64,000 nucleotides of DNA from Oscillospiraceae bacterium (lineage in GTDB: Bacteria > Bacillota > Clostridia > Oscillospirales > Oscillospiraceae). The notes beneath the pieces are model-generated. The model saw only the letters and a list, made by a program, of their open reading frames with translations, did no database searches and was not told where the DNA came from. A program made the position numbers and the translations under genes. Below, one piece after another: positions 28,001 to 61,680 of this stretch (within the stretch, counting starts at the first letter, position 1; every line of letters begins with the position of its first letter). The stretch spans positions 338,687 to 402,686 of the forward strand of contig SVMG01000001.1 in assembly GCA_015067545.1 (NCBI GenBank), read 5' to 3'.

Positions 28001-30994
28001 GGTATTGCCGTTAACCACCGGTCTGGTCTGAGAATGGAGCAGGAAGCTCTTGGTAGAGCCGGCCTCTGCTGTCTTGATCTGATCAAAGACAATGAACGCA
28101 CCGGGATACTTCGTATTGCCGTCCAACTCCAGGTTCAGGAACAGCATACTACGGATCGCTTCCTGGGTATTGTCATCGTACGCACCGGCAACATCACCTG
28201 CGATGTAGGTATAGTCCGGAGTATAAATATTGGGACCGAATTCCTGACCTACGATCTTGGAGCGCAGATATTTGCTGCTGGGGTCTGGGTTGAGCAGATC
28301 ATCCACAGAAACTTTTTGGACTTGTACGCCTGTGGGATTTGCCAGGGAGGAAATGGACAGAGTATTATGGGCAACGGACAGACCGTAATAATCAGTATCA
28401 TGATCGCAGCCCATCAAGACATAGTAGCCGGAGTCACCGGTGAGCAGACCCTTGTAGTAGATCTGGAAGCTACCGGTATCCTCATGCTGGTGACCGCCGA
28501 TCTCTCTTTGTGTCATCTGCATGGAAACTACGATGTCATTGGAGGTCTTACCCCATTCCCAACCGGTACGGGCGATCATGCCGCCGTAGGGCGTGGGCAG
28601 ATATCTGGAAAGGGGCAGATTGCCAACCTCTGTATTGCCGGTGGCATTATCCAAAATGCTGGGATCGTTCAGGATCAGTGTCATAACAGGAGAGTAAATG
28701 GTCGTTCCCGCGCCGGGCTGTACTCCGGGATTTTCCCGCAGCAGCTCCTGATACAGAACAGGATCCTTGTAGAAGTTGGCTACATTGAATATGATCGATT
28801 TCATGGAGTCAAACCAGGTATCATCCTTGGTTTGGGTCATCTCATAGTCGTCGCCTTCGGTCATGATCTTACCGTCAGCACGGCGGGTGTAGATCCACTG
28901 ATAGATGACCTGGGATGCCTCATCAATGAACACCCGGATACCGTCGGCCTTGCCGTCACCGTCCAGGTCGTTCTTGCCGCCGGTCATCTGGTAGATCAGC
29001 CACTGACCCCACATATCCGCATCAAAGCGGTAGGTGCCGTAGGCACTGCCCTGGTGGTAAGCCATGGACTTATACCAAACATTACGGGTATCGATGTACA
29101 GATCAAAGTACATACCGGCAATGTAATCGTAGATGGAAGGATAATCATCTGCAATTGCAATCGCAAAGGCCAGCCAGCACTGCTGGACCTGATACTCCGA
29201 GTCGTGGCCGTTATTGGCCAGGGCCTGGGTTGTTGTGGGTGGGAAGCCTGCTTCGATCATGGATGCCTGGATCTGTGCACCGGCAACAAGCAGGTCCTTC
29301 TCGTGATCGTCCAGCAGATCGTAGCACCAGTCATAGACCTCTGCAACGGTGAACAGGGTCGAACCGATATAACGGTAGTCCATTCCTTGGCCGGAGAAGG
29401 TAACGGTCTGCAGGAAGTTGATCATGGCTTCAACCGCTTCGTCACCGTGGGTCAAAGCGGTCCGCTTCTTCCACTCATTGTCGCTGTTCTTGTAAATGGC
29501 ATAATCAAAGGCTTTTGCCTCAATGATCTGCAAGTAGCTTTCGCTGTAGTTGCTGGCCGCCTTCACATCCGGCAGCACACCGTCGAAGTCCGAACCGCGC
29601 TTTTTGTCGAAGGCTACCCGCGCAGCTTCGTTGTCCTCGTGTTCCATTCTCTCCAGAATGCTGGGGATATCCGCCTCGGTGAACATCACACGGGGATGCT
29701 GATTTGCTGTGGGGTAGATAAGAGGATCCGGGAATTCCTCTGTATCAAATTCCGTCACCTTATCCCAGACCAGCTGGCCGGGCAGTGTGCCCACGCCTGT
29801 GGGAAGATAGGCAACGTTATCGGTGATGATGAATTTGTCGATCTGACCGCCCATATGTCTGGAACGGATGCGGATGTCGAGTATGTCACCCGCCTCACAG
29901 TCAACTGTTGCAATGCGCGTCCACTTGAAGTCGCCCTCCTCAGGCACGACTTCCACCATACGGGTGTACTTGTACTCCTCGCCATTGGAGGAAACAATAC
30001 AGCTGATCGCGTTACTCGAAGCATACATTCTTGCCCAAACAACATAGGTGCCGGTAGTATCCGTATGGATGCGGAAGCTCATCTGAGCAGCAAGCGTCTC
30101 GCTGTAGTCGGCATAGTCGGGCTGGCCGTCGCCGTCGTTATCCTCCGCGGCCTTGGCCATATGTGCTACCTTACCGCCGGAAGCATTGGCGTGATCCTTA
30201 ACCACAATGCGCTCCTGGCCGGGCAGGATCTGATCCTCCGCCTCGAACATGGCGCGGCTGTGATCGGCCTCGTACACACGTACGCCATCCTCGGCTACCG
30301 TATACTTTGCCACGTAATCTTCATAGGTAAGGGTCGCTTTGAGCGTGACTTCCTTACCGGCAACAGTGATATTCTTGATGGCAACGACGGTTTTGTTCTC
30401 ATCCGCCGCATTGACCTCCAGGGGCGCCATCATAGGGATCAGGATGCCGGCGCACAGAATGATAGCGATCATCGCCGTCACCTTTCTGCGCTTGATGAAC
30501 ACAAACACCACACCTGCGATGACCGCTGCACCCAGCAGTGACCACAGAATGATGTTCACGACGTTGACGCCGTCACTGGGCTCTTCCTCAGTGCCGGTGG
30601 CATCGTCTGAGCTGCCGGGCGTCTGATCATTGCCCGTGTTGCCGTTCTGTGTGTCCTCGACGACTGTGACAGCCTTGCGGAACCAAGTCATTCGGAATTC
30701 CTCATGAACACCCACGGAGAACGCACCGGAAACCGGCTCGCCCGTGGTAAACTTGACTCCATCCGGGAGTTCCACAGAATATGTAAAGGTCTTCTCTGTG
30801 TTGTAATTGTTGGTTACAGCCAGAGTCAGCCGCATTTCGTCGTATTCGCCAAAGGAGTCACTGGAGGTGATCCATTCGGCTGCAACGCCCTCTTCTGTGG
30901 TTGTCGCCGCGTAGGTCAGGATCACTGTGGAGAAAATCACAGCAATCATGAGCAACGCAGAAACAATACGGTTTAACGTGGATTTGTTTTTCAT
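22067..30994 (-). CDS. Giant secreted heparinase II/III-like (polysaccharide lyase-like) multidomain protein: Ig-like N-domain, TM hairpin, lyase core, discoidin-like, three SH3b-like, CBM35-like modules and Cys/His-rich repeats
   Basis: 2975 aa; N-terminal signal sequence; ANQHPRVMFTEADIPSILERM, GGHQHEDTGSFQIYYKGLLTGDSGYY; ARYVKLVGYG; WAKIAWNDGYAWV, QGWINMTDVAL, EGWINLADIAL; IEAEDV... CBM-like repeats; HTYS.EW....YHWHA..C repeats. Confidence 0.85.
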   Translation of the reverse strand: MKNKSTLNRIVSALLMIAVIFSTVILTYAATTTEEGVAAEWITSSDSFGEYDEMRLTLAVTNNYNTEKTFTYSVELPDGVKFTTGEPVSGAFSVGVHEEFRMTWFRKAVTVVEDTQNGNTGNDQTPGSSDDATGTEEEPSDGVNVVNIILWSLLGAAVIAGVVFVFIKRRKVTAMIAIILCAGILIPMMAPLEVNAADENKTVVAIKNITVAGKEVTLKATLTYEDYVAKYTVAEDGVRVYEADHSRAMFEAEDQILPGQERIVVKDHANASGGKVAHMAKAAEDNDGDGQPDYADYSETLAAQMSFRIHTDTTGTYVVWARMYASSNAISCIVSSNGEEYKYTRMVEVVPEEGDFKWTRIATVDCEAGDILDIRIRSRHMGGQIDKFIITDNVAYLPTGVGTLPGQLVWDKVTEFDTEEFPDPLIYPTANQHPRVMFTEADIPSILERMEHEDNEAARVAFDKKRGSDFDGVLPDVKAASNYSESYLQIIEAKAFDYAIYKNSDNEWKKRTALTHGDEAVEAMINFLQTVTFSGQGMDYRYIGSTLFTVAEVYDWCYDLLDDHEKDLLVAGAQIQASMIEAGFPPTTTQALANNGHDSEYQVQQCWLAFAIAIADDYPSIYDYIAGMYFDLYIDTRNVWYKSMAYHQGSAYGTYRFDADMWGQWLIYQMTGGKNDLDGDGKADGIRVFIDEASQVIYQWIYTRRADGKIMTEGDDYEMTQTKDDTWFDSMKSIIFNVANFYKDPVLYQELLRENPGVQPGAGTTIYSPVMTLILNDPSILDNATGNTEVGNLPLSRYLPTPYGGMIARTGWEWGKTSNDIVVSMQMTQREIGGHQHEDTGSFQIYYKGLLTGDSGYYVLMGCDHDTDYYGLSVAHNTLSISSLANPTGVQVQKVSVDDLLNPDPSSKYLRSKIVGQEFGPNIYTPDYTYIAGDVAGAYDDNTQEAIRSMLFLNLELDGNTKYPGAFIVFDQIKTAEAGSTKSFLLHSQTRPVVNGNTIIIENTEEGYSGKLVNQVLYVGAADAADPIYKIKRLGGEDKEYWYNGKNHPNESTMADNMAYEPGWGRLEITTTTTNTNQTDYMLNVMYVSDADGSTEVVPATLIKGNGVMGAQLLNHVAMFNMDGNNRISSTVSFTIPASAGHSTFKVNVAGMKAGTWTVSAGGKTVDCVASEDGGMLYFDAPAGKVTITRKNDNSNKTFDTVDHREPVNDILLYNVNGNYVITEVKPVKSGDTVLVPVLETFEIFDSVITREGAVVSIEYMGLQHIVIDTANKTATVNDKKVDVSALQVVGDEILLPVEDLGLLITKDYGEAEWNARSKCAYVTAKAPAYIPEEKRDFDNAIQVENVYLTDEKGTGSVDTSDSSGLVNTLDNSSASYTALAGYLGEAGGVYDFGRVYTLEAIHFMFGQCKTRIYTFEILVSEDGVNFTELSGGKRFKSEKTKEEYVWQSYTMPEDLQARYVKLVGYGNVPDNNWFNWQEVVFVGVPTQAAEVINSNGTTVYATVGGDQLSTLAKGAKVDVVRTQVIDNVSWAKIAWNDGYAWVRLAHIAIYSDAEARIRDTGRVVANTTVKNAPWTDAAVLGQMSAGTAIKIVKTQMVNGVTYALVDFNGYQGWINMTDVALTADPDEFSVESGTVSAQNGTKVYNRSSLTAAVMGTLPFGAAVEIVQTKDIYGVVYGRIIFEDLEGWINLADIALFNPNPPFYMEIEAEDTTLHQGPDSSMYATDGNGKTTNLTKDVVTVTEDDNASGGKVAKLDWSGRFATGTITESTDLTANPAHLSFSVKAEKSGTHFVWVRYKCSSATPTISSYTDGNVFVNSMTTAKTGWLYDMMGDAEDYNSTKVEGGYVWYRLAVCEWQQGQTYTVRLRGRDGGISYDKFVVTTDPGFAPAMEDELVTIKPDRTVEAIEVTTDPLRSDIVLSETEKGVLQVKLERQHFYDNLYLYTGGASPAIGFRLTADKAGTYYVWGKFNKFSTLYASVSGYGNDFTYKYYKPDQKMEATVEGWYLIGTYDVTEAGESVYVRLNGRNGTNIIEQFYVTTDSNFVGVPRCQHSFSTDWSKDADYHWHAATCPHDDLISNKAEHIYDDDMDTTCNTCGHVRAVHPHTYSTEWTSNERYHWHAATCGCTNKVSEKAYHSYGADKRCTVCGAEQEFVSDNEMTFIEAEDVNLFLEKDTTFGHSKAPVMIADNAFASGGKVAQWSWTENLAYGVSMGENASNLTAYPAHISFDVKALKTGLHYVWARVCVDKDTNIWSYIDGNTYKGQRTSATGTGWEYDLWGTDDYCSANEEDFIWVRIGVCEWTAGKTYSVRFRARNGRRIVFDQFVVTMDNTYAPNQDDPMASFAPDTVIEAEDTTLDYTRVNVEESATASNEKHVNFNGFVGTSTAFLSAQGAPAHLSFQINAATPGKYYVWAKFDSAGTLFTSISGSAKDHTYSYYELDKKYTPQYAGWYLVGAYETGGANETIYVRLIGRNGSTKIDQLYVTADSSFAGIKPHEHAYSTDWSTDADYHWHASTCGHTELIADKGEHVYDNDTDATCNTCGYTRVVHIHTYSSEWSHDDTYHWHASTCGCTNKVSDKAEHTFGANKLCTTCGAPLVYVGSSDQLFIEAEDVDIFTTNDSTYANQIPVVLVADSNVSGGNYIKLPQAGNANYTTINSNDLSAYPAHVSFEVKASETGTYYVWAKVSQSGANIWSYIDGITKRTGNLNVTAGGWSYDTFNTTDGFKWVMIATCNWEAGKTYGVRLRSRQAGAILIDQFMVTSDSQITTPHVHTYGAEWGSDETHHGRKCTFAGCTALKDKAEHNFGTTGVCECGKVGFYAVGSTPAYIEAESVKLFTEKDSTYANFVPTKLYDDGKAVYMGGTNTAVIGGTVADYPAHVSFDVKVSTGGTYYIWAKVKKESATPSVLTLIKGDKNNSAQTWKYAQWGETTQYKWVKIATCNWTDVNEVYSVNLRARQQHSIIDQFCVTSDSTWNGTT

Positions 30995-46511: not shown

Positions 46512-47198
46512 TTATTTTCCGTATATATTCTGCACATCAATGCCATTGGTGTGTCTGGCATCATTGAGTAATTCCATAGCCGGGCAGATCAGTGCCCCTT
46601 CGTCGCCCTCCAATGTGACAACAGAGATCGCAGTGAATTTCGGTTGGATCGTCTTGCACACAAAGGGAAACGGAAGATTGAAAAGATGGGACAGAACCGC
46701 CGACGAAGCTCCGCCGTGGCTTGCCATGACGACTGTCTGTGAATTGTTCTCCTTGACCCGATAATAGTTCCCCTCGCGGACATATCCCAATTCTGCAAGC
46801 CAGGGATCGAACCCACCTATGACTCTTTGCACGCTCTCGATTATTACATTATTTTGGAAAACCGGGTGCTCCATCCAGTCAGGAAGCATCACATCCTCTC
46901 CCCGGGAAACCATGGCATTGGTGGTCGCCCATGGCTGCCCAAAAAACGGGATCTCTTCGCCGTTGGCAGACCCCCAGTTCAGTTCCCGCATAAAATCACA
47001 TTGGTGGCAGGAAAGTCCAAGCTTTGCTCCAATATGCTGGGCGGTTTCCACCGCACGACCGGACGAGGAGGTGAATATACGGTCGATTCCCTCATTGCAC
47101 AGTCTTTCCGCTGCGGCCTCAGCCTGCAGGTGACCCAACTCAGTAAGACAGTCCTTTTCGTAGTTGGGATGTCCATGCCGGACAAAAATCAATCTCAT
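46512..47198 (-). CDS. Histidine phosphatase (phosphoglycerate mutase) family protein
   Basis: 228 aa; MRLIFVRHGHPNYEKDCLTELGHLQA, TSSSGRAVETAQHI, VVMASHGGASSAVL. Confidence 0.92.
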   Translation of the reverse strand: MRLIFVRHGHPNYEKDCLTELGHLQAEAAAERLCNEGIDRIFTSSSGRAVETAQHIGAKLGLSCHQCDFMRELNWGSANGEEIPFFGQPWATTNAMVSRGEDVMLPDWMEHPVFQNNVIIESVQRVIGGFDPWLAELGYVREGNYYRVKENNSQTVVMASHGGASSAVLSHLFNLPFPFVCKTIQPKFTAISVVTLEGDEGALICPAMELLNDARHTNGIDVQNIYGK

Positions 47199-49387
47199 TA
47201 TACTTCCTCCAAACTATGTCCTGCTTTTTCACCGTTGCGCGCCTGCACCGGTGACATGCCGAACTTTTTGCGGAATGCGGTAGAAAAATAGCTTGCGCTC
47301 TCAAAGCCCACATTACGGCCAATTTCCACAACATTTTCGCTGGTAGTACGCAGCAATCGGTATGCCGTTTCCAGTCTTTTGGAGGTAATGTACTCCTTAA
47401 AGCCAACTCCCGTCTTTTCCTTGAACAGACGGCTTACCGCATAAACTGACATGTTCATGTGGTCTGCGACAGACATCAGGCACAGCTCACAGTTGGTCAG
47501 ATTCTCATTCACGTAATCCATAAGCTTCATCTGCAGCTTTGCGCTGTTGAGCTCCTGGGTGGATGCTACGGTATCGCAGTATTTTTCCACCGTAGTCCGC
47601 AGAAGGGCAAACAGTCTGGTGGGGTTACGGAAGGTCATCAGTGCATCGATCTCTTCCTCCGGCAGCGGCACCTGGCTGTCCTTAACACTTGTCAGAAATG
47701 TTGTCAGCAGCTTGTAGCAGTAGTACAGGCGGTATGCAGGACGGATCCTTCGCACCGCCAAAATCACCTCGATCTTTTCCAGGGACAGCAGTGCCTTTTC
47801 CTTTTCACCTGTACAGACCTGCTGCACAAAATACTGCACTTCCTTCACCGGATAATCACCCACGGGGGTAACATCCTCACTCTCCTGCTGATACACCTGC
47901 TCGGAGAAGGAGCTGTAATAGGATTTACGAAGCTCCTGCAGATTCTGCACGACTTCACCCATGCGCACATCACCCTCGCAGTTCGCGGCATCCCGCAAGC
48001 TATGGTGCATATTCATTTTTGCAAGGATCGGGTCAATGGCACTGGGCGAAAGTAAAATAAACAGCACATGAGGACGGTTTGGCATACTGGTGGTATACAC
48101 ATCCACATTTTCCATGCTTTTGCTCAGGTGGTCCGCCACTGCATTTGCCTGACTGGCGGTCAGCTCCACGGAGCTGACAGTGATCACCGCAAAATACCGC
48201 AGACGGTCGCAGTCGAACTGCTTATTGAGCAGATCATCTTCCACCGGCGAACCGTAGATCAGGTCGCCCAGCACAAAGCTGGCCAGCAGTGCCTGTTGGT
48301 CAGATATCTTGGCATCCCGGGCAAAAAATGCCGAATCCAGGAGCTCCAGCTCCGAAAGGTTGCTTGCGCCCAGAGCCGCTGAGTGGCGGGAGATCAGCCG
48401 TTTCACCGGGTTGTAGTTGATATATACCGCCGTTGCAAACAGGACCACAGTCAGCATCAGTGACACGGCAATGAAGCCCGCCATGCGGTTGACATACTCT
48501 GTCATTTCCTTTCTGGAATCCGCCTGGGTAACGGATGCCAGGAAAACATTGCCCGTGATTTCATCGGTGTACTTATAAATATCCAGGCGTTCCTGGTCAT
48601 AGGTCAATTCAAAGTAGGGCTGATCATCGTCTCCCAGGAATGCGGCAAAAGCGCTTCCCTCGCAGGCCGAGACCGGGAAGCTGGCATTGTGCACCAACCA
48701 GTCCCCCTCTTTGTTCACAATGGCCAAATTCGAGCCGGATGGGATATTTGCCTGGAAGGTTCGCAGAAGATTATCCGCATCCAGAACATAGATCACCACG
48801 CCCTGAAAGGCGGTCCAGGATTTCAGATACACCGGCTTAGCGATGAGAAATCTGCCGTAGGTGTTGGTATTTTTCACAAAGAAGACATCCATCTGCGTAA
48901 GCTCGTTCAGGAAAGCCATAAGGCTCTGCTGCACCTGCTCTTCCTCAGCGCCAACGTTGCTGAAAAACAGCTCCTGTGATGGGCGGTAGCCGCTCATAAG
49001 CACGCAGTCCTTGCTGGGATAATAAAAACCGATCTCCTCCACGGAAGGCAATCCCACACTGTAGTTCTTGACCACCTGTGCGGCCTTGAACAGATCATAA
49101 CCGGTGGCCTTGGGGTCCAGCGGATCGCACATTGCGGTGTCGGCGCTGATCTTCAGGGCATTGTAGTCCAGCATTTCCAGCTGGGCGTTCCAGGAGTGGG
49201 CATTGCTGCGCAGGGCGGCCACAAATGCATCGGTATTGTTGGCGCTGATCTCGGTAGTGGATTGTCTGACCAGCCAAAGCTGCACTGTGACCAGTGGGAT
49301 GCAGATCAGGACAATAATGGAAACGATCATCGTCAGAAGAAAAGATTTTCGAATAAACCAAGGTCTGTGTTTGAGTTTTCCGGTCAT
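47198..49387 (-). CDS. Membrane-bound AraC-family transcriptional regulator (extracellular Cache-like sensor, two TMs, C-terminal HTH)
   Basis: 729 aa; N-terminal TM SFLLTMIVSIIVLICIPLVTVQLW, second TM MAGFIAVSLMLTVVLFATAVYI; LTNCELCLMSVADHMNMSVYAVSRLFKEKTGVGFKEYITSKRLETAYRLL...NVGFESASYFSTAFRKKFGMSP. Confidence 0.93.
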   Translation of the reverse strand: MTGKLKHRPWFIRKSFLLTMIVSIIVLICIPLVTVQLWLVRQSTTEISANNTDAFVAALRSNAHSWNAQLEMLDYNALKISADTAMCDPLDPKATGYDLFKAAQVVKNYSVGLPSVEEIGFYYPSKDCVLMSGYRPSQELFFSNVGAEEEQVQQSLMAFLNELTQMDVFFVKNTNTYGRFLIAKPVYLKSWTAFQGVVIYVLDADNLLRTFQANIPSGSNLAIVNKEGDWLVHNASFPVSACEGSAFAAFLGDDDQPYFELTYDQERLDIYKYTDEITGNVFLASVTQADSRKEMTEYVNRMAGFIAVSLMLTVVLFATAVYINYNPVKRLISRHSAALGASNLSELELLDSAFFARDAKISDQQALLASFVLGDLIYGSPVEDDLLNKQFDCDRLRYFAVITVSSVELTASQANAVADHLSKSMENVDVYTTSMPNRPHVLFILLSPSAIDPILAKMNMHHSLRDAANCEGDVRMGEVVQNLQELRKSYYSSFSEQVYQQESEDVTPVGDYPVKEVQYFVQQVCTGEKEKALLSLEKIEVILAVRRIRPAYRLYYCYKLLTTFLTSVKDSQVPLPEEEIDALMTFRNPTRLFALLRTTVEKYCDTVASTQELNSAKLQMKLMDYVNENLTNCELCLMSVADHMNMSVYAVSRLFKEKTGVGFKEYITSKRLETAYRLLRTTSENVVEIGRNVGFESASYFSTAFRKKFGMSPVQARNGEKAGHSLEEV

Positions 49388-49474
49388 ACCGTCCTTGCTC
49401 CTCTCCGTACTTGTTTGTTTATTTTAGCACAATACGGCTTGTTTTGCAACGGACAAAATACGCAGAAAAAACAA

Positions 49475-49502
49475 CGCCCCAGCCGGATAACCGGCTGGGG
49501 CG
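49475..49502 (-). terminator. Rho-independent terminator downstream of the small ORF
   Basis: CGCCCCAGCCGG-ATAA-CCGGCTGGGGCG then GTTGTTTTTT on the minus strand. Confidence 0.9.
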
Positions 49503-49557
49503 CCCTTCTGACCTGTCACACAGCAGCCCTATGCGGCAGAGAAGAAAATCGTATTAG

Positions 49558-49683
49558 TTAGGGAAACTCGTCAGGGGGAAGAACAACACCGTTGTCGCCG
49601 TCAACGAGATCACCACTGGTGGTGATAACGTCCTCGACCCGGAAGAGCAGCACATTCAGTTTGGGTTCCAGAAAATCTTTCAT
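49558..49683 (-). CDS. 41-aa small protein/peptide with VITTSGD motif; not in the supplied ORF track
   Basis: AAGGAGGTAATACAC-ATG; MKDFLEPKLNVLLFRVEDVITTSGDLVDGDNGVVLPPDEFP*; followed by a strong terminator. Confidence 0.8.
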   Translation of the reverse strand: MKDFLEPKLNVLLFRVEDVITTSGDLVDGDNGVVLPPDEFP

Positions 49684-49699
49684 GTGTATTACCTCCTTA

Positions 49700-52600
49700 T
49701 CAGGATGCGTAGGCTGCGGCGCTGTCGCCGTACTTCATCATAGCCTTGACCAGGTTGCCCAGATTGGTAGCCTGCTTGTTGTAAGCATAGGTCTCGACGC
49801 TGTAGAGCAATGCACAGCTAACAGCAGTATCGCCATTGTTAACTTCTGCATAAATCTCTTCGCTCATCTGTGCAGCATTCAGACCGTTGAAGTCAACATA
49901 GTAGGTATTCTCCGCACTTTCGTCCTTAACGGGAACCAGGTTCCAGGTGTTGCCTGCCGCCTGGATCTCCACAGTAACATTGGAAATATCCAGCTCTGTC
50001 TTGAAGGTCAGACGAACGGTAACCGCATCGTTCAGGATCAGGGAAGCGGACTTCCAGGTAGCAGCATTGTCCGACTCACCGACAAACTCCAGCTCGCTCA
50101 CCAGCTCCCGGTCAGTTGCGGTAGCGGCGCTGAGATCCAGGTCTGTGGTATCCAGAGGTTCCTGGCCCAGGGCCTTCTGCAGCTCCACGCCGTAGTTGAT
50201 CAGGTCAGCCAGCAGGGTGTCCAGCTTGGCATCGCCCTCGCCCATCTTGTTCTTGCAATAGGTCAGAACACTGTAATCGCGAGTGTCCAGCACTACATCG
50301 ACACCATTGAAGGTGGCGTGCAGGGTGGCGGTGATATTGTCAGCGATCTCGTGAGGAGCAATGTTCTTAAACCAGAAGACATAGCTGTCACCATCTGCAA
50401 CACCCTCAACGGTGGTTTCCTCGCCGTTCATGGTGAAGACCACATAGGGATCGGTGAAGTCTGTGCCAAACTTATCAGCCAAAGCGGTGTACTTGATGGC
50501 CAGATTGTTCTGCAGAGCCAGAGAAGCATTCTTGATGGTGGGCTCATCCAGGCCGGCCAGTTCAAGCTTCAGAGGAACCAGTTCAAAGTTGTCCACGTAT
50601 ACAAGGTCATTTGCGTGACCAGTACCTGTCATGATGATCTTAAACTGGAAATGCTTGTCAGTTCCGTCAAGGTAACCGGACGCGCCGATCTTAGTCCACT
50701 CTGTATTGCTTACATTGATGTACTTGCGATCTGTAATTGTCCGAGTACTATCAAAAGAGGCCGAACCCGAAGTATATTCTGTCGTTGTCCGAAGCAGTGA
50801 TGCATAAGCAGACATGGCAGAAGCAGTGGCATTGGCATCAACAGTGTCCTCACCGCGCATCAGGGAAAAACCAAACCAATAATCACCCGCACCCTTCTCT
50901 GCTACCACAGCCGGCAGAATGTTGGAGTAATTCCAGTTTGCATGGCTGTAAAGGTGCTCATGTCCACCGCCATCCGCGCGGGTGCTCTTGACGATCTGAT
51001 AGGCAGCATACTCACCGTGACATACGGGATCGGTAACAAAACCGGGTGCGTAATTTGCAACTGGATCGTTCCATGCCCAACCGGTAGAAATATTTTCAAA
51101 ACTGCCGCCGTAGTATGCGGATGCCAAATTCTCATAAGGATGGACATAGATGACCTGCTCCACGGTCAGCTCACCGGTAATAATGTACTCGTTGGAGCTG
51201 ACAGTACCGGTCACCACATAGCGGCCCAGCTTGGACACATCCAGAGTAGTGAGATCCCAGGTCACATCAGCCTTGCCGGTGGTGCTATTGCTCAGAGCTA
51301 CATCTACCTGCGCGGGCAGAGCCAAAGCGGTCTGCCAATCTACGCCTGCGTAGGTATTGTAATCCTTGATCACAGACAGAGCAGTCGGCGTGGAGGTGAC
51401 CTTGGTAACGATTGCCGGAACCTCAGCCAGCTCAATCTTCAGAGGAACCAGTTCGAAGTTATCCACATATACGCGGTCATTTGCGTGACCCTGACCTGTA
51501 ATAGTAATCTTGAACTGGAAATGCTTATCGGTTCCATCCAGATAGCCTGTCAAACCGATTTTTGTCCACTCTGTATCGCTCACCGGAATGTACTTTCCAT
51601 CTCTGTATCGGCGAGTTGAATCAAAAGAGGCACTTCCACTGGTATACTCTGCTGTAGTACGTTCCAGCACTACCAAGGCAGAAAGACTGGAAGCTGTAGC
51701 ATTGGCATCAACAGTGTCCTCACCGCGCATCAGGGAAAAACCAAACCAATAATCACCCGCACCCTTCTCTGCTACCACAGCAGGCAGAATGTTGGAGTAA
51801 TTCCAGTTTGCATGGCTGTAAAGGTGATCAGATCCACCGCCATCCGCGCGGGTGCTCTTGACGATCTGATAGGCAGCATACTCACCGTGACATACGGGAT
51901 CGGTAACAAAGCCCGGTTTGTAATCTGCAACCGGATCGTTCCATGCCCAACCGGTAGCAATATTTTCAAAACTGCCGCCGTAGTATGCGGATGCCAAATT
52001 CTCATAAGGATGGACATAGATGACCTGCTGCACGGTCATGGGCGCTCTCATAATATATTCGTCAGAGGTCACCTTACCGGTGAGCACATACCAGCCGGGG
52101 GTGGTCAGATCCAGCTTGGTGTAATCCCACTCCACGGAAGCCTTGCCGGTGCCGCCGTTGTCCAGAGTTACATCCACCTCAGTGGGCAGACCCAGAACCT
52201 CTTTCCAATTCTCACCTGCATAGGTATCGTAATTCTTGATCACGGAGTAAGCAGGAATCTCAGAAGTGACAGCGGTGATGACGGGAGGAAGCTCGGTCAG
52301 CGCCAGCTTCAGAGGAACCAGTTCAAAGTTGTCCACATATACGCGGTCATTTGCGTGACCCTGACCTGTAATAGTAATCTTGAACTGGAAATGCTTATCG
52401 GTTCCATCCAGATAGCCTGTCAAACCGATTTTTGTCCACTCTGTATCGCTCACCGGAATATACTTTCCATCTCTGTAGCGGCGAGTCGAATCAAAAGAGG
52501 CACTTCCACTGGTATACTCTTGCGTAGTACGGTCTAACACTACTAAGGCAGAAAGACTGGAGGCTGTAGCATTGACATCAACAGTGTCCTCACCACGCAT

Positions 52601-53212
52601 CATAGAGAAACCAAACCAATAATCACCCGCACCCTTCTCTGCTACCACAGGAGGCAGAATATTGGAGTAATTATAATTCGGATGGCTGTAAATGTGATCA
52701 GATCCACCGCCATCCGCGCGGGTGCTCTTGACGATCTGATAGGCAGCATACTCACCGTGGCATACGGGATCGGTAACAAAGCCCGGTGCGTAATTTGCAA
52801 CCGGATCGTTCCATGCCCAACCGGTAGAAATATTTTCAAAACTGCCGCCGTAGTATGCGGATGCCAGATTCTCGTACTCCCGAACCTGCACCGGGAAGTA
52901 AACAGCCTGCGCAACGCCGTTTACGGTACCGGGAACAAAGTAGTAGCCGGGAGTCTTCAGGTCAACATACTTGGCAGCATCTGCCCACTGGACATCGGCC
53001 TCGCCGTCACTTGTGGTGACCTTGGCAGGCATGCCCAGCTGTGCGACCCAATCCTCGCCAACGTAGCTATCATAGTTTTCTACGATAGAAACGCCTTGCG
53101 GCTGGGTAATGGTCGCCTCAGTTGCCTTTGCCGTAAATACTACGCCGGGAATGCAGGAAATGAGCATCGCCAGGCACAGAAAAACGGCAAGTGTTTTGCT
53201 GAGTCTTTTCAT
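49700..53212 (-). CDS. Secreted protein with three near-identical ~290-aa modules and a C-terminal duplicated exoprotein domain
   Basis: 1170 aa; signal peptide MKRLSKTLAVFLCLAMLISCIPGVVFTAKA; PYENLASAYYGGSFENI(S/A)TGWAWNDPVA repeated three times. Confidence 0.85.
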   Translation of the reverse strand: MKRLSKTLAVFLCLAMLISCIPGVVFTAKATEATITQPQGVSIVENYDSYVGEDWVAQLGMPAKVTTSDGEADVQWADAAKYVDLKTPGYYFVPGTVNGVAQAVYFPVQVREYENLASAYYGGSFENISTGWAWNDPVANYAPGFVTDPVCHGEYAAYQIVKSTRADGGGSDHIYSHPNYNYSNILPPVVAEKGAGDYWFGFSMMRGEDTVDVNATASSLSALVVLDRTTQEYTSGSASFDSTRRYRDGKYIPVSDTEWTKIGLTGYLDGTDKHFQFKITITGQGHANDRVYVDNFELVPLKLALTELPPVITAVTSEIPAYSVIKNYDTYAGENWKEVLGLPTEVDVTLDNGGTGKASVEWDYTKLDLTTPGWYVLTGKVTSDEYIMRAPMTVQQVIYVHPYENLASAYYGGSFENIATGWAWNDPVADYKPGFVTDPVCHGEYAAYQIVKSTRADGGGSDHLYSHANWNYSNILPAVVAEKGAGDYWFGFSLMRGEDTVDANATASSLSALVVLERTTAEYTSGSASFDSTRRYRDGKYIPVSDTEWTKIGLTGYLDGTDKHFQFKITITGQGHANDRVYVDNFELVPLKIELAEVPAIVTKVTSTPTALSVIKDYNTYAGVDWQTALALPAQVDVALSNSTTGKADVTWDLTTLDVSKLGRYVVTGTVSSNEYIITGELTVEQVIYVHPYENLASAYYGGSFENISTGWAWNDPVANYAPGFVTDPVCHGEYAAYQIVKSTRADGGGHEHLYSHANWNYSNILPAVVAEKGAGDYWFGFSLMRGEDTVDANATASAMSAYASLLRTTTEYTSGSASFDSTRTITDRKYINVSNTEWTKIGASGYLDGTDKHFQFKIIMTGTGHANDLVYVDNFELVPLKLELAGLDEPTIKNASLALQNNLAIKYTALADKFGTDFTDPYVVFTMNGEETTVEGVADGDSYVFWFKNIAPHEIADNITATLHATFNGVDVVLDTRDYSVLTYCKNKMGEGDAKLDTLLADLINYGVELQKALGQEPLDTTDLDLSAATATDRELVSELEFVGESDNAATWKSASLILNDAVTVRLTFKTELDISNVTVEIQAAGNTWNLVPVKDESAENTYYVDFNGLNAAQMSEEIYAEVNNGDTAVSCALLYSVETYAYNKQATNLGNLVKAMMKYGDSAAAYAS

Positions 53213-53349: not shown

Positions 53350-56300
53350 TCATTCTGCCAGAGGCAGCTTCAGGGGCACCAGCTCAATGTTATCCAGATA
53401 CAGGATATCATTGGCAACACCCTTGCCGGTGTTGACGTAGAACCGCAGGTGCTCATCCAGGCCATCCATATTGGCAACCATACCCACACGCGTGAAGCCG
53501 TCCGCATTCAAGGTCACATCAGCGGTGGTCAGTTTGCGGCTGCTCTCGTATGCCACGGAGTTGTTGTTTTCACCCAACTGATCCAGTCCGGGCACCAAGG
53601 TGGTGGTTCTGTGCATGGCCATGTTGATGGTGAAGTTGTCATTCACCTCACCGGTCACGGTGTTCGCACCGATCATTGCCCATACACCAAACCAGTATTC
53701 GCCGGCCTGTGTCACCGTATTGGCGAACATTTCGGAATACTTGTTGTAGGAGTATGCGGGCTGACCACTAACCGTCGTCCAGCCGGAGGGCATGATCTGC
53801 TTGGTGGCATACTTGCCGTGGTATACGTGCTCCGTGGTAAAGCCCTGGTTGCGCAAGGACCAATAATTGGGCTTATTCTCCAGGCTGCCGTTGTAATTCT
53901 CCAAAAGGTTGCTGTAGGCACGAACCTCGACCTTGAAGTAAACCGCCTTTTGCACGCCCTTTACTGTGCCGGGCACTGCATAAGAGCCTACCACATCCGG
54001 GTTGACGTAGTCTGCTACGTTCTCCCACTGAACATCCACTTCCACGCCGGCTACCTTCACCTTCGTGGGCAGGCCCAGCTTGGCGATCCAGTCTGCGCCC
54101 ACATAGCCGTCGTAATCCTCGACGATGGAAACGCCGGTGGGTGTTTCCAGATCCTTCAGCGTGCTGCAGACAGTACATATGCCGTCTTCGAACCGGTGCT
54201 CTTCATATCCCGGCTTCGCGCCGCAGATACATTCGTGCCAGTGGTGGGTGGTATTGGAATGCCATGCTTCATCCGGAGTACACACGTGAGCCGGTCTCTC
54301 GTAGCCGCAGACATCGCAGGTCCTGTCAAGGACATTCTCGAAGGTATGCGCATCCTTGTCACGGAACAGCTCATCGTGGCCGCAGTCAGCCTTGTGCCAG
54401 TGATCGTTCTCGTCAGACTCCCATTCGGTGCTGTAGGTATGCACATGGGGGATGTCGTTGGGATCGTTGGTGATGTAGATCTGGTCGATCTCGACATTTT
54501 CCGTCACAGACCGGAATCTCAGCACGTAGGATTTGCCGGCAGTCCAGTTATAGACCTTCTCAGCACCATAGGCGCCTTCCTTATTACCAAGCGTCTGCAT
54601 GTGGTACGCCTGTTTCAGCCGCACCCAATAGAAATCGTCCTCCGCCACAGAGTAGGTTCCGTCTGCCTTCGCCAACGGCTGACGCCAATAGTAGGTGTCC
54701 GTTCCGTTGTCATCCTCGATCATGCAGAAGATGCCATCCTGGTAATTGACGCTGTTTCGCTCAGACGTGGAAACCTTCAGCCAGATATAGACCTCAGATG
54801 TCGTGTCAGAGTGAGCCGCATAGACCAGGTGTGCATTGGGCCTGTTGCCCTGATTCATCATAGCGTAGGTCAGGTTGAAGGTCCATTTTGTCTGCATGGT
54901 CAATCCGCCCGAAGCTGCGCTATTGGTCTTCACGCCCATGGGATGGGTGGTCACGATCTTGTTATAGTGATTGGTGTTCACATAGTATGTGTTCAGGAAA
55001 TTCTCCTGACCGATGGGTGCGATCGCGCCCTCCTCTGCCTCAATGGTCAGCTTGCCGCCGGTCATGTTGTACGCAGTACGCATACCGCAGGCGCTGCAAA
55101 CGCCGTCCACAAAGGTGTGCTCCGCCGTATCCTTCTTGTGGCCGCAAGCACATTCATGCCAGTGGCTGTATGCGTCGAAGCTCCACAGGTCGCTATAGGT
55201 ATGCTCGTGAGGAGGCCGCACATAGCCGCAGTCATTACAGGTGGTATCCAAAAGATCGTTGTAGGTGTGTGCTTCCTTTTCGGTAACCAAACCGTCATGG
55301 CAGGAAGATGTCCACCAGTGGTGATTCTCATCAAAGCTCTTCAGCGAATTCCATTCATGGCTATGCGGAATGTCGCTGGCACTGTTGGTGATGTAGATCT
55401 GATCGACCTGAACATTGGCAACCGCACCTCTGAGGCGGATCTTATAGGTCTGGCCTGCAGTCCAGTTGTAGGCGTGGTCTGCCTGCTTTACAGTCTCAGA
55501 GCGCCACTCCTGATTCAGGCACACCCAGTAGTAGTCGCCTGCGCCCTTGGAAATGCCATTGAGATCCAACGGCTGACGCCAGTAGTGGGTATCTGTGCCA
55601 CCATCGATATAGGCGTAGATCTTGGCACCGTAGGTCAGGTTTGCAGGAGAATAGACCCTCAGCCAGATATAGTACTGTCCGGATTTATCCGGGGTCACCA
55701 GTGCGCTGATATGGGGGATCGGTGTTGTACCGGCCTCCAGGAAGGTGTTCCAGCCAGAGTTGGTATTGATGATCTGAACCGCCTTGCCGGAAGAGGCATT
55801 GGTCTGCTCCACCACCTTGACAACAGGCTTGTTGTGCTGATTCGGAATGTGGTTTTCCTTGTCATCCGGAGCCAGCATCAGATCCTCTGCTTCCAAAGTC
55901 AGCTTGCCGCCGGATGTTGCAAAGGGCGGTAAACCGCCGCAGATCGTACACTTGCCATCCACATAGTTGTGGGGTGCGTAGTTGGGGTTCTTGCAGCCAC
56001 AGGTGTTGCATTCGTTGTCGGTGTGGTCCTCAAAGTAATGCTCACCGTAGAAACGCAGGGGGGCATCCGTACAGCCACATACAGGCTGATACCAGTGATG
56101 GGTGTTATCATGACTCCAGGTTTCCGCATACTTGTGGTTGTGAGGTGCTTCGCCCGGATCATTGGTAATGAAGATCTCGTCCACCTGCACACCTGCATAC
56201 ATACCTCTGAGATTGATGGTATATACACGCCGCGCGGTCCACTCATACAGATGCTCTCTGGTCAGCTTTACGCCGTTCTGGCATTCCTGATACAGTCTGA

Positions 56301-59300
56301 CCCAAATATAGTTGTCCGCATCTGCAGAATAGGTCTCCAATGTCAGAGGCTGACGCCAGTAGTAGTAGTCATCGCCACCCTCGATCCAGGCATACAGACC
56401 GGTCTCCTTCTGGGCGTACACCTTTGCCCAGATGTAGTACTCACCGCTCTCGTCGGGCATGACCCGGAAGCTGAGGTGCGATGATGCCTCGGAGGTGACA
56501 CGCATCAAATTGTACCAGTTGGTATATGTCTTCAGGAACTCGACCGCCTTACCGCCGGCAGCGCTTTCCCGTTCGACGATCTTGGAAATATCGCCTTCGT
56601 AGTACTGATTCGGATTGAACTGATCCGGAATGATCTCCTCCACGCCGGGTCCCTGCAGCTTGGCGTCCTCTGCCTGTACAGTAACGCTGCCACCGGTCAT
56701 GAGATGCACACCGGTGATCGGTCTGCAGGTAGTGAAAATCTTGCCAACAGTCATGCCCTTGTCACAGGTCTTGATCCGAACGTAGATGGATTCACTTGCC
56801 TGGATCTCGATCTCACCGAGCTTCACCTTCAGGTAACCGTTTTCGGATTCGGTCTCCATTTCGCTCAGGTCGCCCAGAGTATACTCGAAATCCTCGTTAT
56901 TGGCAGAAACAGCATAGAAGAATCTGTCAGCAGCTGCACTTGCCGCCTTCAGGGTAGCCCAAACGCTGAACGTACCGCTGGTATCCGTGATGATATTCAG
57001 GGTGATATCACCGGGCATATTCTTGGTGTTCAGCACATAGTCGATATAGGCCTGGCTCACGCTGCCATCTGCACTGACACTCTGCAGCTTTGCTGCTGTG
57101 CCGGAGGGCTTGGCCATGGAATACTCATAGATCGCATCCTTGGCATTCACAGACACCTCACCGCTGATATTGGTCTGCTTGCTGTAGCAATCCTCATAAG
57201 GAACATAAGAAGCCTCAGGCGAGATCACGAAGCAGTCGATGATCAGACCGTCGCAACCGGAAATAACCGAAAGGTCATACTCTTCGTTTGCGTTCCATAT
57301 TGCACCGACTAACTGGTCTTCGTACTGACCCAGCTTGATCCATTCAAAGCCATCCTTGTCCTTCTTGCCAACGTTGACCTTTTCGGCGTAATAGGTATCA
57401 CCGGTCACGCCTTCAATGTTGACCCACAGGCAATCTCCGGAGGTCACCTTGGAGGTGTTGACCTTCGCCCAAATATAGTAGGTTGCTGTCTTGTTGGGGA
57501 TGAAGGTCGCCCACAATTGCGGCTTCGCGGCTGTCACCGTGCCGGGATTGGTGGTGTAGCCCACCTTCATGGTCACGCTCTCCTTGCCGGAGGCCTGTGT
57601 ATTTCCTTCTGCAACAGCAGTATCCTGCATATGGAAGCATTCTGCCTCAGCCAGCAGCTTATTGCCGATGATCTCAGCGCCATCGGGGTCGATCACAGAC
57701 TTCTGCAGGAACAGAATTTCCTTAATGATGGTCCAGCCGTTGTCCACAGAAGCATTGGGCTTGCCGGCATTGGTGTATCTGTAGCGTCCCTGACCAACGA
57801 TCTTGACAAATCGTGCATCATTGTTCATGGGGAAGCTGATATAGGTGTTCGCAGTTGTCTTGTAGGCGATCTCACCGGAGCGGGTGTTCTTGTATACCTC
57901 TTCCCAAGTCACTCCATCTATAGAAACATAAAGATCAAAGATGTAGTCACTGTACAGGGTTTCTTCCGTGAAGAACATGACCAGCATATCCGTAAGCGGT
58001 ACGACCTTACCGAAGTCAAAGATCGCTTCACAGATATTGTTGCCGGACTTCTGACTGGTCCAACGGGTCGTAGCGTCGCCATCCAGACAGTTGCTCAGAG
58101 GCATGGTAGAGTAGCCATTGTCAATGATTGCCTCCACCTGAACAGCGGTGGGGTATTCATAAAGTACATCCTTGGAAAGCTCCGGGATGCCCACCTGTGC
58201 CTCCACGTTAATGCGGATCCGGTTGATGAAGCGGTCGTAGTACATCTTGCCGCTTTCACCGACCAGCGCCTGCATGGTGGCCATGTCCACCAAAAGATCG
58301 CCTGCTTCCGCACGGATCTCCTTGAACGCAACAGCTTCCCCATTCTTGGTGATGGAGGTGGCTGTCAGTTCATAGGTGACGCCTTTGTAAAGCACGGAGT
58401 ACTTGGAACCGTCTCTGCTCCAGGAACCCTTGCCGTTAAGTGCATCAAATACCAAAGATGCGGGGATCAGGTAATCGTCACCGGATTGCACGGGGTGTGC
58501 ATCGGTGTAGTAATAGAAGTTGTTGACCATGATGCCGATGGGTTCTTCATCGGTATTGGGTGTCTCATCAAAGGTCTTGTTGCTGTTGGCATCGGTGTAG
58601 ACCAGCTTCACAGTACCGGCAGCTGCCTCGAAGTAGATCATGCCGCCGTCTTCGGAGGCGATCTGATTTCCAATGGACTTACCGTTCACATAAACAGTCC
58701 ATGTACCTGCCTTCAGGCCGGCCACATTGACCTTAAAGGTGTTGTAGCCCTCATTGGCAGGAATGGTAAAGGTGGTTGTTTCTGCGATACGGTTGTTGCC
58801 GTCCATATTGAACATGGCAACATGGTTCATCAGCTGTGCGCCCATCAGCACACCCTGACCGTCATAGATCAGCTTGGCGGGAACGAGCTGTGCATCGCTG
58901 TCACCGTCACTGACGTACATAACATTGAGCATGTAGTCAGTCTGATTTTCCTCGGTAGTCTTGGTGGTGATCTCCACACGGCCCCAGCCCTGCTCCTGAG
59001 AGAGTGTGCTGGCGATCGTGTCATTATGTGCATAGTTGTACTGGCCAACCAGGAACTGCTTGCCATCGCCGCCGATCACACTGATGGTATAATCAGCATC
59101 CGCCTTGGCAGCAGTACCCATATACAGCACCTGGTTTGTCAGCTGTCCGTTATAACCGTGTCTTGTGTTCTTGATGGTGATCACATTGTCATCCACAGTG
59201 GGTTCCTGCTGCATATGTAACAGGAAGCTCTTCTTGGAGCCCACCTGGGTGGTCTTGATCTGGTCAAATACCACGAATGCACCGGGGTGCTCGGTATTGC

Positions 59301-61680
59301 CGTCCAGCTCCAGGTTTAGGAACAGCATGCTTCTGACTGCCTCCTGAACATTGTCATCGTAGGACTTTGCAATGTCACCGGCCAGGTAAGAATATTCCGG
59401 CTTGTAGGTATTGGGGCCGTACTCATGGCCAACAACGGTGTTGACGATCTCCATGTAACCCGGAGTACCCCAACCTCTGACTTCTGAATTGTTCTGAACA
59501 CCGTAGCGGTTCTGAACCGAGGTGATCGACAGGGTGTTGTGCGCAATCGAAGACTTGGTGTAGTTCAAATCGTGGGGTGTGGCATAATTCACATAGTAGC
59601 CGCTTTCGCTGGCCAAAATGCCCTTATAGTAGATCTGGAAGTTACCTGCGTCGTGGTGCTGGTGGTTGTTCACGTACACCTGTGACAGCTGCATCTTCGC
59701 GATCACATCATTGGAATCCGTACCCATGTCCCAACCGGTCCGGGCGATCATGGAGCCGGACGGTGTACCAAAGTACTTCGTGTAGGGCATATTGTAGTAG
59801 GACTCAGTGTCCACCTCGGTATCATGGGTCACCAGCAGATAGAAAGCATCCGTGCCGGTGAACTTCAAGTTCTTCAATTCCAGGGCCAAACGGCGGTATA
59901 CACCGTTCTTATAGAAATTAGCACGCCGGGCAAATGTGTTTGCATTCGCATCCCAAAGCTCCGTTCTGTCGGTCTGGTTTTCTTCCCAGGTATCGCCTTC
60001 CCGGAGGAACTGACCGTCCGGACGCAGGCTGTACAGCACCTGATCCGCAGATTTTTCTACGATCGGATCCAGAGAAATGAAGCCGTCGTCCTTGCCGTCA
60101 CCGTCCCGGTCATTGTCACCGCCGGTCATGGCATAGATCAAATACTGGGCGTTCAAATCCGCATCACCACGGCCACCGACGCCGTAGCTGATGCCCTGGT
60201 GGTGAGTTTCGGAAACATACCAAATATTTCTGGGCGCCAAATACAAATCGAAGTATGCGCCGCCCACATATTCGTAGAAAGTGGGATATTCGTCGTACAT
60301 GGCGATGGCGATTGCCAGCCAATACTGCTGGACCAGATTGCCGCCAATGTGGCTGACAACGGTATCCTTGGATTCGCCGATCTTGATAGGCCAGCCTGCC
60401 TCGGAGGGCGCACCGACTCTGATCGCACCGGCTGCGATATTCTGCTTGTCCTCATGGGTCAGCAGATCATAGCACCAGTCATAGACCTCGGCTGCTGCCA
60501 GCTGGCAGTCACCGCGATAGTAAATATCGTAATCATTAGGAGCAAAAGTTACTGTCTCCAGCGCCTTCTGAATAGCACGGACAGCCTGTTTGCCGTAGTA
60601 GCCGGCCATGTGGGCGTCCTTCTCATTATCACTGTCCTTAAACAGTGCATAATACAGTGCCTTTGCACGAATGGAATACAAATTATCGGCACTATAGTTT
60701 CTCTCGATGACCACATTTCCGTTCTCGTCAACAGTCTCCTTGGGTGTGCCAAAAGAACCGTTAAAAGTAATACCCAGGTAGCGATAGAACGCGCTGACGA
60801 GCTCTGCGCACTCCTCAGACTCCATTGCCTTGATGATACCGGGAATATCATCCTTGGTAAACATCAGACGGGGGTGTTCACCAATGGTTGGGCTGATCGT
60901 GGGATATTTATACTCCACCCAATCAAGAACGGACATGGAGCTGTGCATGGCTTCAACCACGGTCTCGGTCTGATCAGCCATCTCATAGTTGATGGTGGCA
61001 GTAGCCTCGTATTCCTTGCCGTCGACAATGAACTTGACCGACGCGTTCATGGTGTTACCCTCACCCACGACGATCTCACCGGAATTCAGCTCGACCGCGC
61101 TCACATCCACCGCAGGGATGCAGGGCAGCAGCATACCCAGCACCAGCACCAACGCGATGCAGGAAATGATGCCTCTGCGCTTAAGGATAAGAAAAACGAT
61201 GCCGCCAATGCCTGCAAAAGCCAGGACGATCAGGACGATCAGCACAACGACCGTGCCTACAGAGGGGCCTTGCTCCTCCACATCCGTATCCACAGGCTCA
61301 GTGGGCGCCGGTTCCGTTGCGGGAGGTGTCTCCTCCTCGGGAGGATTGACGACCTTCATCATCCGCAGATTGATGGCCGCCCGCTCGCCGACCTCAACCA
61401 CTTGCGCGCCTTCAATATCACCGCTCATCAGCGTCAGCTCGTCCATGGGGACCTGCGCTGTCCAGGAAATATTTGCCAGCTTCATATTCTGGTTGTAGTT
61501 TTTCGCCAGCAGGATGATCTGGATCTCTTCATTCACACCATACTCAGCTTTGGATGTGACGATCTCAAAGGTCATTCCGTCTCCGGCAGCATATTCTGCG
61601 GCGATTGCAGAAATCGCGCACACAGCTGCCAGTGCCAGGACCAAAGCGATCAGAGATCTGAGAAGCTTACTTTTTTTCAT
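53350..61680 (-). CDS. Giant secreted heparinase II/III-like multidomain protein, paralogue of the 22067-30994 product; C-terminal module shared with the 1170-aa protein
   Basis: 2776 aa; GEHPRLMFTKDDIPGIIKAM, NHQHHDAGNFQIYYKGILASESGYY; discoidin-like ARFVKIVGQG; CBM-like and Cys/His-rich repeats; C-term GVSIVEDYDGYVGADWIAKLGLP. Confidence 0.85.
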   Translation of the reverse strand: MKKSKLLRSLIALVLALAAVCAISAIAAEYAAGDGMTFEIVTSKAEYGVNEEIQIILLAKNYNQNMKLANISWTAQVPMDELTLMSGDIEGAQVVEVGERAAINLRMMKVVNPPEEETPPATEPAPTEPVDTDVEEQGPSVGTVVVLIVLIVLAFAGIGGIVFLILKRRGIISCIALVLVLGMLLPCIPAVDVSAVELNSGEIVVGEGNTMNASVKFIVDGKEYEATATINYEMADQTETVVEAMHSSMSVLDWVEYKYPTISPTIGEHPRLMFTKDDIPGIIKAMESEECAELVSAFYRYLGITFNGSFGTPKETVDENGNVVIERNYSADNLYSIRAKALYYALFKDSDNEKDAHMAGYYGKQAVRAIQKALETVTFAPNDYDIYYRGDCQLAAAEVYDWCYDLLTHEDKQNIAAGAIRVGAPSEAGWPIKIGESKDTVVSHIGGNLVQQYWLAIAIAMYDEYPTFYEYVGGAYFDLYLAPRNIWYVSETHHQGISYGVGGRGDADLNAQYLIYAMTGGDNDRDGDGKDDGFISLDPIVEKSADQVLYSLRPDGQFLREGDTWEENQTDRTELWDANANTFARRANFYKNGVYRRLALELKNLKFTGTDAFYLLVTHDTEVDTESYYNMPYTKYFGTPSGSMIARTGWDMGTDSNDVIAKMQLSQVYVNNHQHHDAGNFQIYYKGILASESGYYVNYATPHDLNYTKSSIAHNTLSITSVQNRYGVQNNSEVRGWGTPGYMEIVNTVVGHEYGPNTYKPEYSYLAGDIAKSYDDNVQEAVRSMLFLNLELDGNTEHPGAFVVFDQIKTTQVGSKKSFLLHMQQEPTVDDNVITIKNTRHGYNGQLTNQVLYMGTAAKADADYTISVIGGDGKQFLVGQYNYAHNDTIASTLSQEQGWGRVEITTKTTEENQTDYMLNVMYVSDGDSDAQLVPAKLIYDGQGVLMGAQLMNHVAMFNMDGNNRIAETTTFTIPANEGYNTFKVNVAGLKAGTWTVYVNGKSIGNQIASEDGGMIYFEAAAGTVKLVYTDANSNKTFDETPNTDEEPIGIMVNNFYYYTDAHPVQSGDDYLIPASLVFDALNGKGSWSRDGSKYSVLYKGVTYELTATSITKNGEAVAFKEIRAEAGDLLVDMATMQALVGESGKMYYDRFINRIRINVEAQVGIPELSKDVLYEYPTAVQVEAIIDNGYSTMPLSNCLDGDATTRWTSQKSGNNICEAIFDFGKVVPLTDMLVMFFTEETLYSDYIFDLYVSIDGVTWEEVYKNTRSGEIAYKTTANTYISFPMNNDARFVKIVGQGRYRYTNAGKPNASVDNGWTIIKEILFLQKSVIDPDGAEIIGNKLLAEAECFHMQDTAVAEGNTQASGKESVTMKVGYTTNPGTVTAAKPQLWATFIPNKTATYYIWAKVNTSKVTSGDCLWVNIEGVTGDTYYAEKVNVGKKDKDGFEWIKLGQYEDQLVGAIWNANEEYDLSVISGCDGLIIDCFVISPEASYVPYEDCYSKQTNISGEVSVNAKDAIYEYSMAKPSGTAAKLQSVSADGSVSQAYIDYVLNTKNMPGDITLNIITDTSGTFSVWATLKAASAAADRFFYAVSANNEDFEYTLGDLSEMETESENGYLKVKLGEIEIQASESIYVRIKTCDKGMTVGKIFTTCRPITGVHLMTGGSVTVQAEDAKLQGPGVEEIIPDQFNPNQYYEGDISKIVERESAAGGKAVEFLKTYTNWYNLMRVTSEASSHLSFRVMPDESGEYYIWAKVYAQKETGLYAWIEGGDDYYYWRQPLTLETYSADADNYIWVRLYQECQNGVKLTREHLYEWTARRVYTINLRGMYAGVQVDEIFITNDPGEAPHNHKYAETWSHDNTHHWYQPVCGCTDAPLRFYGEHYFEDHTDNECNTCGCKNPNYAPHNYVDGKCTICGGLPPFATSGGKLTLEAEDLMLAPDDKENHIPNQHNKPVVKVVEQTNASSGKAVQIINTNSGWNTFLEAGTTPIPHISALVTPDKSGQYYIWLRVYSPANLTYGAKIYAYIDGGTDTHYWRQPLDLNGISKGAGDYYWVCLNQEWRSETVKQADHAYNWTAGQTYKIRLRGAVANVQVDQIYITNSASDIPHSHEWNSLKSFDENHHWWTSSCHDGLVTEKEAHTYNDLLDTTCNDCGYVRPPHEHTYSDLWSFDAYSHWHECACGHKKDTAEHTFVDGVCSACGMRTAYNMTGGKLTIEAEEGAIAPIGQENFLNTYYVNTNHYNKIVTTHPMGVKTNSAASGGLTMQTKWTFNLTYAMMNQGNRPNAHLVYAAHSDTTSEVYIWLKVSTSERNSVNYQDGIFCMIEDDNGTDTYYWRQPLAKADGTYSVAEDDFYWVRLKQAYHMQTLGNKEGAYGAEKVYNWTAGKSYVLRFRSVTENVEIDQIYITNDPNDIPHVHTYSTEWESDENDHWHKADCGHDELFRDKDAHTFENVLDRTCDVCGYERPAHVCTPDEAWHSNTTHHWHECICGAKPGYEEHRFEDGICTVCSTLKDLETPTGVSIVEDYDGYVGADWIAKLGLPTKVKVAGVEVDVQWENVADYVNPDVVGSYAVPGTVKGVQKAVYFKVEVRAYSNLLENYNGSLENKPNYWSLRNQGFTTEHVYHGKYATKQIMPSGWTTVSGQPAYSYNKYSEMFANTVTQAGEYWFGVWAMIGANTVTGEVNDNFTINMAMHRTTTLVPGLDQLGENNNSVAYESSRKLTTADVTLNADGFTRVGMVANMDGLDEHLRFYVNTGKGVANDILYLDNIELVPLKLPLAE

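Follow-up and report, generated by a model that had tools for sequence, protein, structure and literature searches.

The linear polyphosphorylated peptides (LPP) are RiPPs described by Popov et al. (2026) from the lppAKBSDN genes of Paenibacillus alginolyticus, which encode LppA, LppK, LppB, LppS, LppD, and LppN, and LPP clusters are located in capsule loci (PMC13381572). The LPP kinase was shown to add phosphates to Ser3 of the core, and removal of the leader by the SpI-like LppS was shown to be RRE-assisted (PMC13381572). The role of LPP and of the paeninodin-type phosphorylated RiPPs is stated to be unknown, as are the fate and the final product of LPP, and the main text of the LPP paper mentions neither Clostridia nor exoproteins (PMC13381572). 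Here we describe a 41-aa peptide gene in a stretch of 64,000 nucleotides (the window, meaning the whole stretch that was analysed). Taken as a whole, the gene is best explained as the precursor of an LPP-like RiPP, with the maturation read from homology and, more tentatively, a docking role from the genomic context, and we give this reading a probability of roughly 0.78. At the level of sequence, it is carried by peptides that divide into a predicted leader, a near-invariant Ser, and a variable acidic tail, by a single predicted maturation cassette elsewhere in the genome, and by seven scattered precursors lying beside secreted proteins with a common C-terminal domain (CTD).

The gene lies on the minus strand at 49558..49683 (ATG at 49683, stop at 49558) and encodes MKDFLEPKLNVLLFRVEDVITTSGDLVDGDNGVVLPPDEFP. 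Its ATG follows, after a 7-nt spacer, the Shine-Dalgarno sequence AAGGAGGT (49691..49698, minus strand), and it is separated by 16 nt from the stop codon of a co-directional upstream gene for a secreted 1170-aa exoprotein with Big_4 repeats (49700..53212, minus strand). The row of genes that ends in the peptide is headed by a 2776-aa secreted heparinase II/III-like protein (53350..61680, minus strand), and the operon is closed by an intrinsic terminator (49473..49504, minus strand) with a 14-bp stem containing 11 GC pairs and a T-run; the region contains four terminator-like sites, whereas shuffled sequence would yield 0.3. A sequence-only reading had claimed this arrangement, with AAGGAGGT-N7-ATG, the ORF, and a strong terminator, as well as the position between the exoprotein and the terminator, and all of its details hold on the minus-strand sequence. 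It had also described the peptide correctly as free of Cys, lacking a signal peptide, and acidic at its C-terminus. Beyond the terminator lies the gene for a 729-aa membrane AraC-type regulator (47198-49387, minus strand), and similar regulators of 722-743 aa are encoded close to L030, L032, and L033, three further peptide loci.

No family was found for the window peptide in Pfam and NCBIfam searches, a full-text literature search for EDVITTS or DVITTSG returned no paper, and viral contigs contained no relatives. Profile searches of its own 1.8-Mb genome recovered it with E values of 1.8e-20 (A1) and 6.6e-14 (A2) and gave seven copies in all, the window peptide counted. Relatives were present in 14 of 151 genomes of the family, 33 of 101 of the genus, and 47 of 391 of the class. 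A single genome may carry as many as 18 copies, and the distinct relatives across Clostridia number about 100 (107 in the core statistics); most of the genomes surveyed are MAGs, and the locus counts are not phylogenetically independent. The named relatives are mostly MAGs from herbivore guts, assigned to Oscillospiraceae, Ruminococcus, and other Clostridia. The motif that the sequence-only reading had placed beside secreted proteins in gut Clostridia is real. Conservation of the frame, which that reading had left to be checked, was seen in the paralogue pair L030/L031, where dN/dS was 0.073/0.536 = 0.14 and not near 1, with a value for the core that was also low (0.09/0.95, about 0.10). The 41-residue ORF is a real gene and a member of a conserved family, a large hidden one of small genes in uncultured gut Clostridia. 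At another locus (L169, G213:C8, 7007-8100), five tandem peptide genes differ in their variable parts and have the common end NPNCENEGPAGDAFL, of which further copies occur at L173 and L185.

The 48 aligned relatives conform to the pattern [FY]xxPx[LMI]E[VI]xxFxxED[VI]ITTS, without gaps from the F/Y to the Ser. Conservation by column was 48/48 for [FY], 39/48 for P, 46/48 for F, 41/48 for D, and 47/48 for Ser; over the 107 peptides, the candidate acceptor position was Ser in 106 and Thr in the other, the search pattern admitting only S or T there. Downstream of the Ser the sequences are hypervariable, 96% of the 107 cores being net acidic, and their lengths range from 5 to 46 aa (median 20 aa). 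From the profile and the ungapped alignment, the window precursor comprises a leader of residues 1-22 (49618..49683, minus strand), with a predicted RRE-binding motif FxxPxL at residues 4-9 followed by FxxEDVITT; the candidate phosphoacceptor Ser23 (49615..49617, minus strand), by analogy with Ser3 of LppA; and, as residues 24-41, the acidic tail GDLVDGDNGVVLPPDEFP that forms the core and contains a D/E-x-LP motif (49558..49614, minus strand, stop included).

The peptides lie next to secreted proteins. Upstream sequence was sufficient for 107 distinct peptides, and in 86 of them an ORF of 150 aa or more precedes the peptide gene by no more than 250 nt (median gap, 22 nt). The 1170-aa exoprotein ends in a tandem Ig-like/helical CTD of 278 residues (49703..50536, minus strand), modelled by AlphaFold2 with a pLDDT of 93, for which no Pfam entry was found. 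A genome-wide profile search of the peptide's own genome returned exactly seven CTDs, one per peptide, and all seven peptides adjoin secreted CTD proteins, a result that carries some ascertainment bias in that the CTDs used to build the profile came from the vicinity of peptides. In the genus, 29 genomes have peptides, 25 have CTDs, and 20 have both (Fisher p 4e-10); in other genomes, many CTD proteins lack a peptide neighbour, and the exoprotein next to some peptides has no CTD. As far as we found, such a one-to-one pairing of precursors with secreted proteins having a common tandem domain is unreported. A PDB fold search with the CTD gave only low-coverage Ig/FN3-like matches and nothing receptor-like, so a receptor function could not be read from the fold. 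A crude signal-peptide test was positive in 45% of control genes and was not counted as evidence. Some genomes of the same genus (G177, G215, G221, and G236) carry 20 or more copies of the CTD. In G165 and G177, 20-24 CTD proteins and a PqqD gene were present with no peptide detected, and these genomes may hold a differently built precursor. The window also encodes a second giant secreted heparinase II/III-like protein (22067-30994, minus strand; 2975 aa; HepII_C, F5/8, and SH3_3), which has neither a CTD nor a peptide beside it.

The ends of the peptides recur in neighbouring proteins. At several loci, the product of the next gene is little more than an anchor joined by a long linker, rich in Pro/Thr or Gly/Ser, to an end in which that of the peptide recurs; anchoring is by a lipobox, a membrane helix at the N-terminus, or SLH domains (PF00395, seen in L017 and L026). 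The pairs of peptide and neighbour tails include DEDELPPVVIG and DDDELPPVPVG (L048), LDTPIG and VDTPIG (L059), GGAGNED and GGAGTED (L047), ENMTDKG and DNMTEKG (L017), and LPPNTTDLF and YPPNMTPLY (L147). For 15 automatically chosen tail pairs, the mean similarity exceeded that of all 100,000 permutations (p<1e-5). A D/E-x-LP motif is recurrent in the tails, LP occurring within the last 14 aa in 20 of 107 peptides against 6.8+-2.3 in shuffled ones, and the tail of the window peptide also has an LP motif (GVVLPPDEFP). A search of its own genome with tail motif A3 found three peptides and a 2360-aa exoprotein only, with no lipoprotein, and no tail-matched lipoprotein for the window peptide was found in that genome. 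At L032 (7044-16635, minus strand), a 2360-aa heparinase-type protein ends in the acidic DGSEGSIILPDYETDILGRG, like the peptide behind it (..DDDGNIVTPGYGI). The pairing and the tails bear on a possible, if doubtful, reading in which an LPP-like RiPP is exported as a signal or an antimicrobial peptide and its adjacency to exoproteins reflects shared regulation only. The RiPP cassette does contain an exporter, and the fate and role of LPP are stated to be unknown (PMC13381572), but two observations point to a role in surface architecture: in the own genome each peptide is paired with one CTD protein, and tails match those of proteins at the same locus that are anchored in the membrane or the wall.

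In relatives, the peptide gene is often followed by genes for an HprK-like kinase, a PqqD-type RRE, a small S24/S26 peptidase, and an ABC exporter, in this order, and sometimes by NTP_transf_5. Within the genus, 28 of 54 peptides have a PqqD gene no more than 10 kb away, compared with about 1.4 expected, a count that treats related loci as independent. At loci picked solely by the motif FxxEDVITTS, the kinase was present in 10 of 22 and the kinase, RRE, and peptidase together in 8 of 22; since some of the seeds for the profiles of these three proteins came from these very loci, their E-values are not independent, although their presence is. The own genome has a single such cassette (contig C6, 3447-6661), comprising an MsbA/HepA-type ABC exporter, an HprK-like kinase, a PqqD-type RRE, and a Ser-His-Asp SpI-like peptidase. 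It is off the window's contig and linked to none of the seven precursors, and it must therefore act in trans on all of them; apparently, one maturation cassette serves many dispersed precursors. Its neighbours are capsule-synthesis genes, encoding a CpsB-type phosphatase, a tyrosine autokinase, and a chain-length protein. NTP_transf_5 (PF14907) occurs twice in the genome, on contig C7 and unlinked to the cassette, one copy lying in a polysaccharide locus.

The individual proteins of the cassette fit these assignments. The RRE matched PF05402 (1.6e-16, C6:3913-4125), and its profile matched the lasso RRE TbiB1 (1.8e-10) and PDB entries 9x90, 9x8z, and 6jx3. The model of the kinase (pLDDT 96) resembles the PEP carboxykinase (PEPCK) and HPr kinase (HprK/P) folds. 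In the peptidase, Ser33, His72, and Asp86 are invariant in 17 homologues; the L044 protein matched TIGR02228, and the own-genome peptidase itself had no family match. A modified-peptide precursor, one of the roles proposed in the sequence-only reading, is thus well supported by the conserved RRE-binding leader, the near-invariant Ser, and the variable acidic core, together with RRE, kinase, peptidase, exporter, and nucleotidyltransferase genes that are adjacent in relatives and in trans here. An unmodified small secreted or cytosolic partner of the exoprotein, acting as a chaperone or adaptor without RiPP chemistry, would suit the strict pairing with secreted CTD proteins in the own genome and a short, translation-coupled gene, but it leaves the split into leader and core, the near-invariant Ser, and the recurrent adjacency of kinase, RRE, and peptidase unexplained, and we consider it improbable. 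A lasso-peptide precursor, with a YxxPxL leader, cleavage after the TT region, and a macrolactam core closed from Gly/Ser to an acidic residue, is very improbable: paeninodin-type lasso clusters (PMC8498205) also have the leader motif, a PqqD-type RRE, the kinase, NTP_transf_5, and the exporter, but this assignment is disfavoured because no match to the transglutaminase-like B2 leader peptidase (PF13471) was obtained in the own genome and its convincing stand-alone matches are confined to 2 of 101 genus genomes, both without the peptide. Further, among the genes listed for cassettes L105, L111, L115-L118, L040, L041, and L044, no cyclase-like one was noticed, and the cores range from 5 to 46 aa in length.

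For an LPP-like RiPP, homology with LPP suggests a plausible course of maturation. The RRE would grip the leader, the kinase would phosphorylate Ser23, the peptidase would cut off the leader near a putative site at TT/S, and the exporter would secrete the acidic peptide; the nucleotidyltransferase may put a sugar or glycan on the phosphate. The genomic context further hints that the tail could be a docking tag holding the neighbouring exoprotein at the cell surface, since the same tail is found, at the end of long linkers, on lipoproteins and SLH wall proteins of sister loci. On the simplest reading, the tails would bind a common extracellular partner, for which the CTD exoprotein is the obvious candidate, and the RiPP would be one of three ways to display such a tail. 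The sequence-only reading had suggested an adaptor for the upstream exoprotein, which is plausible in this changed form; the roles of chaperone and signalling peptide found no support. The precursors are physically paired with secreted exoproteins of carbohydrate-active type, and they share their tails with proteins anchored in the membrane or wall at the same locus. This leads to a direct, testable idea of function, and the neighbourhood is the first to offer a concrete clue to the purpose of such peptides. A fuller picture, speculative and on balance rather unlikely, is that the LPP-type RiPPs found in gut Clostridia serve as docking tags on the surface, in which a phospho-Ser end extended by the nucleotidyltransferase would sit on an envelope glycan and the acidic LP C-tail would capture secreted enzymes via the tandem Ig-like CTD, in parallel to the same-tailed lipoproteins and SLH proteins, in a cellulosome-like arrangement with the RiPP as scaffold.

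Among known systems, SynChlorMet (ScmC/ScmD) resembles the cassettes in kinase-like and PqqD-like proteins that appear among their NCBIfam matches, but these matches are far below the curated cut-offs, and other Scm genes were not seen in the cassettes. Lasso systems of the paeninodin/pseudomycoidin type share the YxxPxL leader logic, the PqqD-type B1, a Ser-acting HprK-like kinase, a nucleotidyltransferase, and an exporter; here, in contrast, the peptidase is SpI-like, B2 is absent from the own genome, and no cyclase was seen in the cassettes. With LPP, the family shares a short precursor with a conserved [FY]xxPx-hydrophobic leader, a conserved Ser, and a variable core, and also a discrete PqqD-like RRE, an HprK-like kinase, an archaeal-type SpI peptidase (Ser-His-Asp), an MsbA-like exporter, an NTP transferase, and the placement of the cassette beside capsule genes. 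The RRE-binding motif [Y/W]xxPx[L/V/I/A/F/Y] is represented as [FY]xxPx[LMI] in most of the 48 relatives, the F of the window peptide not being among the published residues at the first position. Of the full LPP leader consensus YxxPxVLxHQxIxFETxxS, only the first part is present, with no HQ and no FET; the leader here reads FxxEDVITTS instead of HQxIxFETxxS, its anchor is F or Y, and the spacing from Tyr/Phe to Ser is one residue longer. Moreover, the hosts are Clostridia, seven precursors in trans to one cassette are dispersed beside secreted exoproteins, and the short acidic cores end in tails that match surface-anchored proteins. Since every LPP gene class is shared, but the leader consensus is partial and the precursors are dispersed and tied to exoproteins, we regard the family as one that probably works like LPP and as a new variant of it, rather than a proven member.
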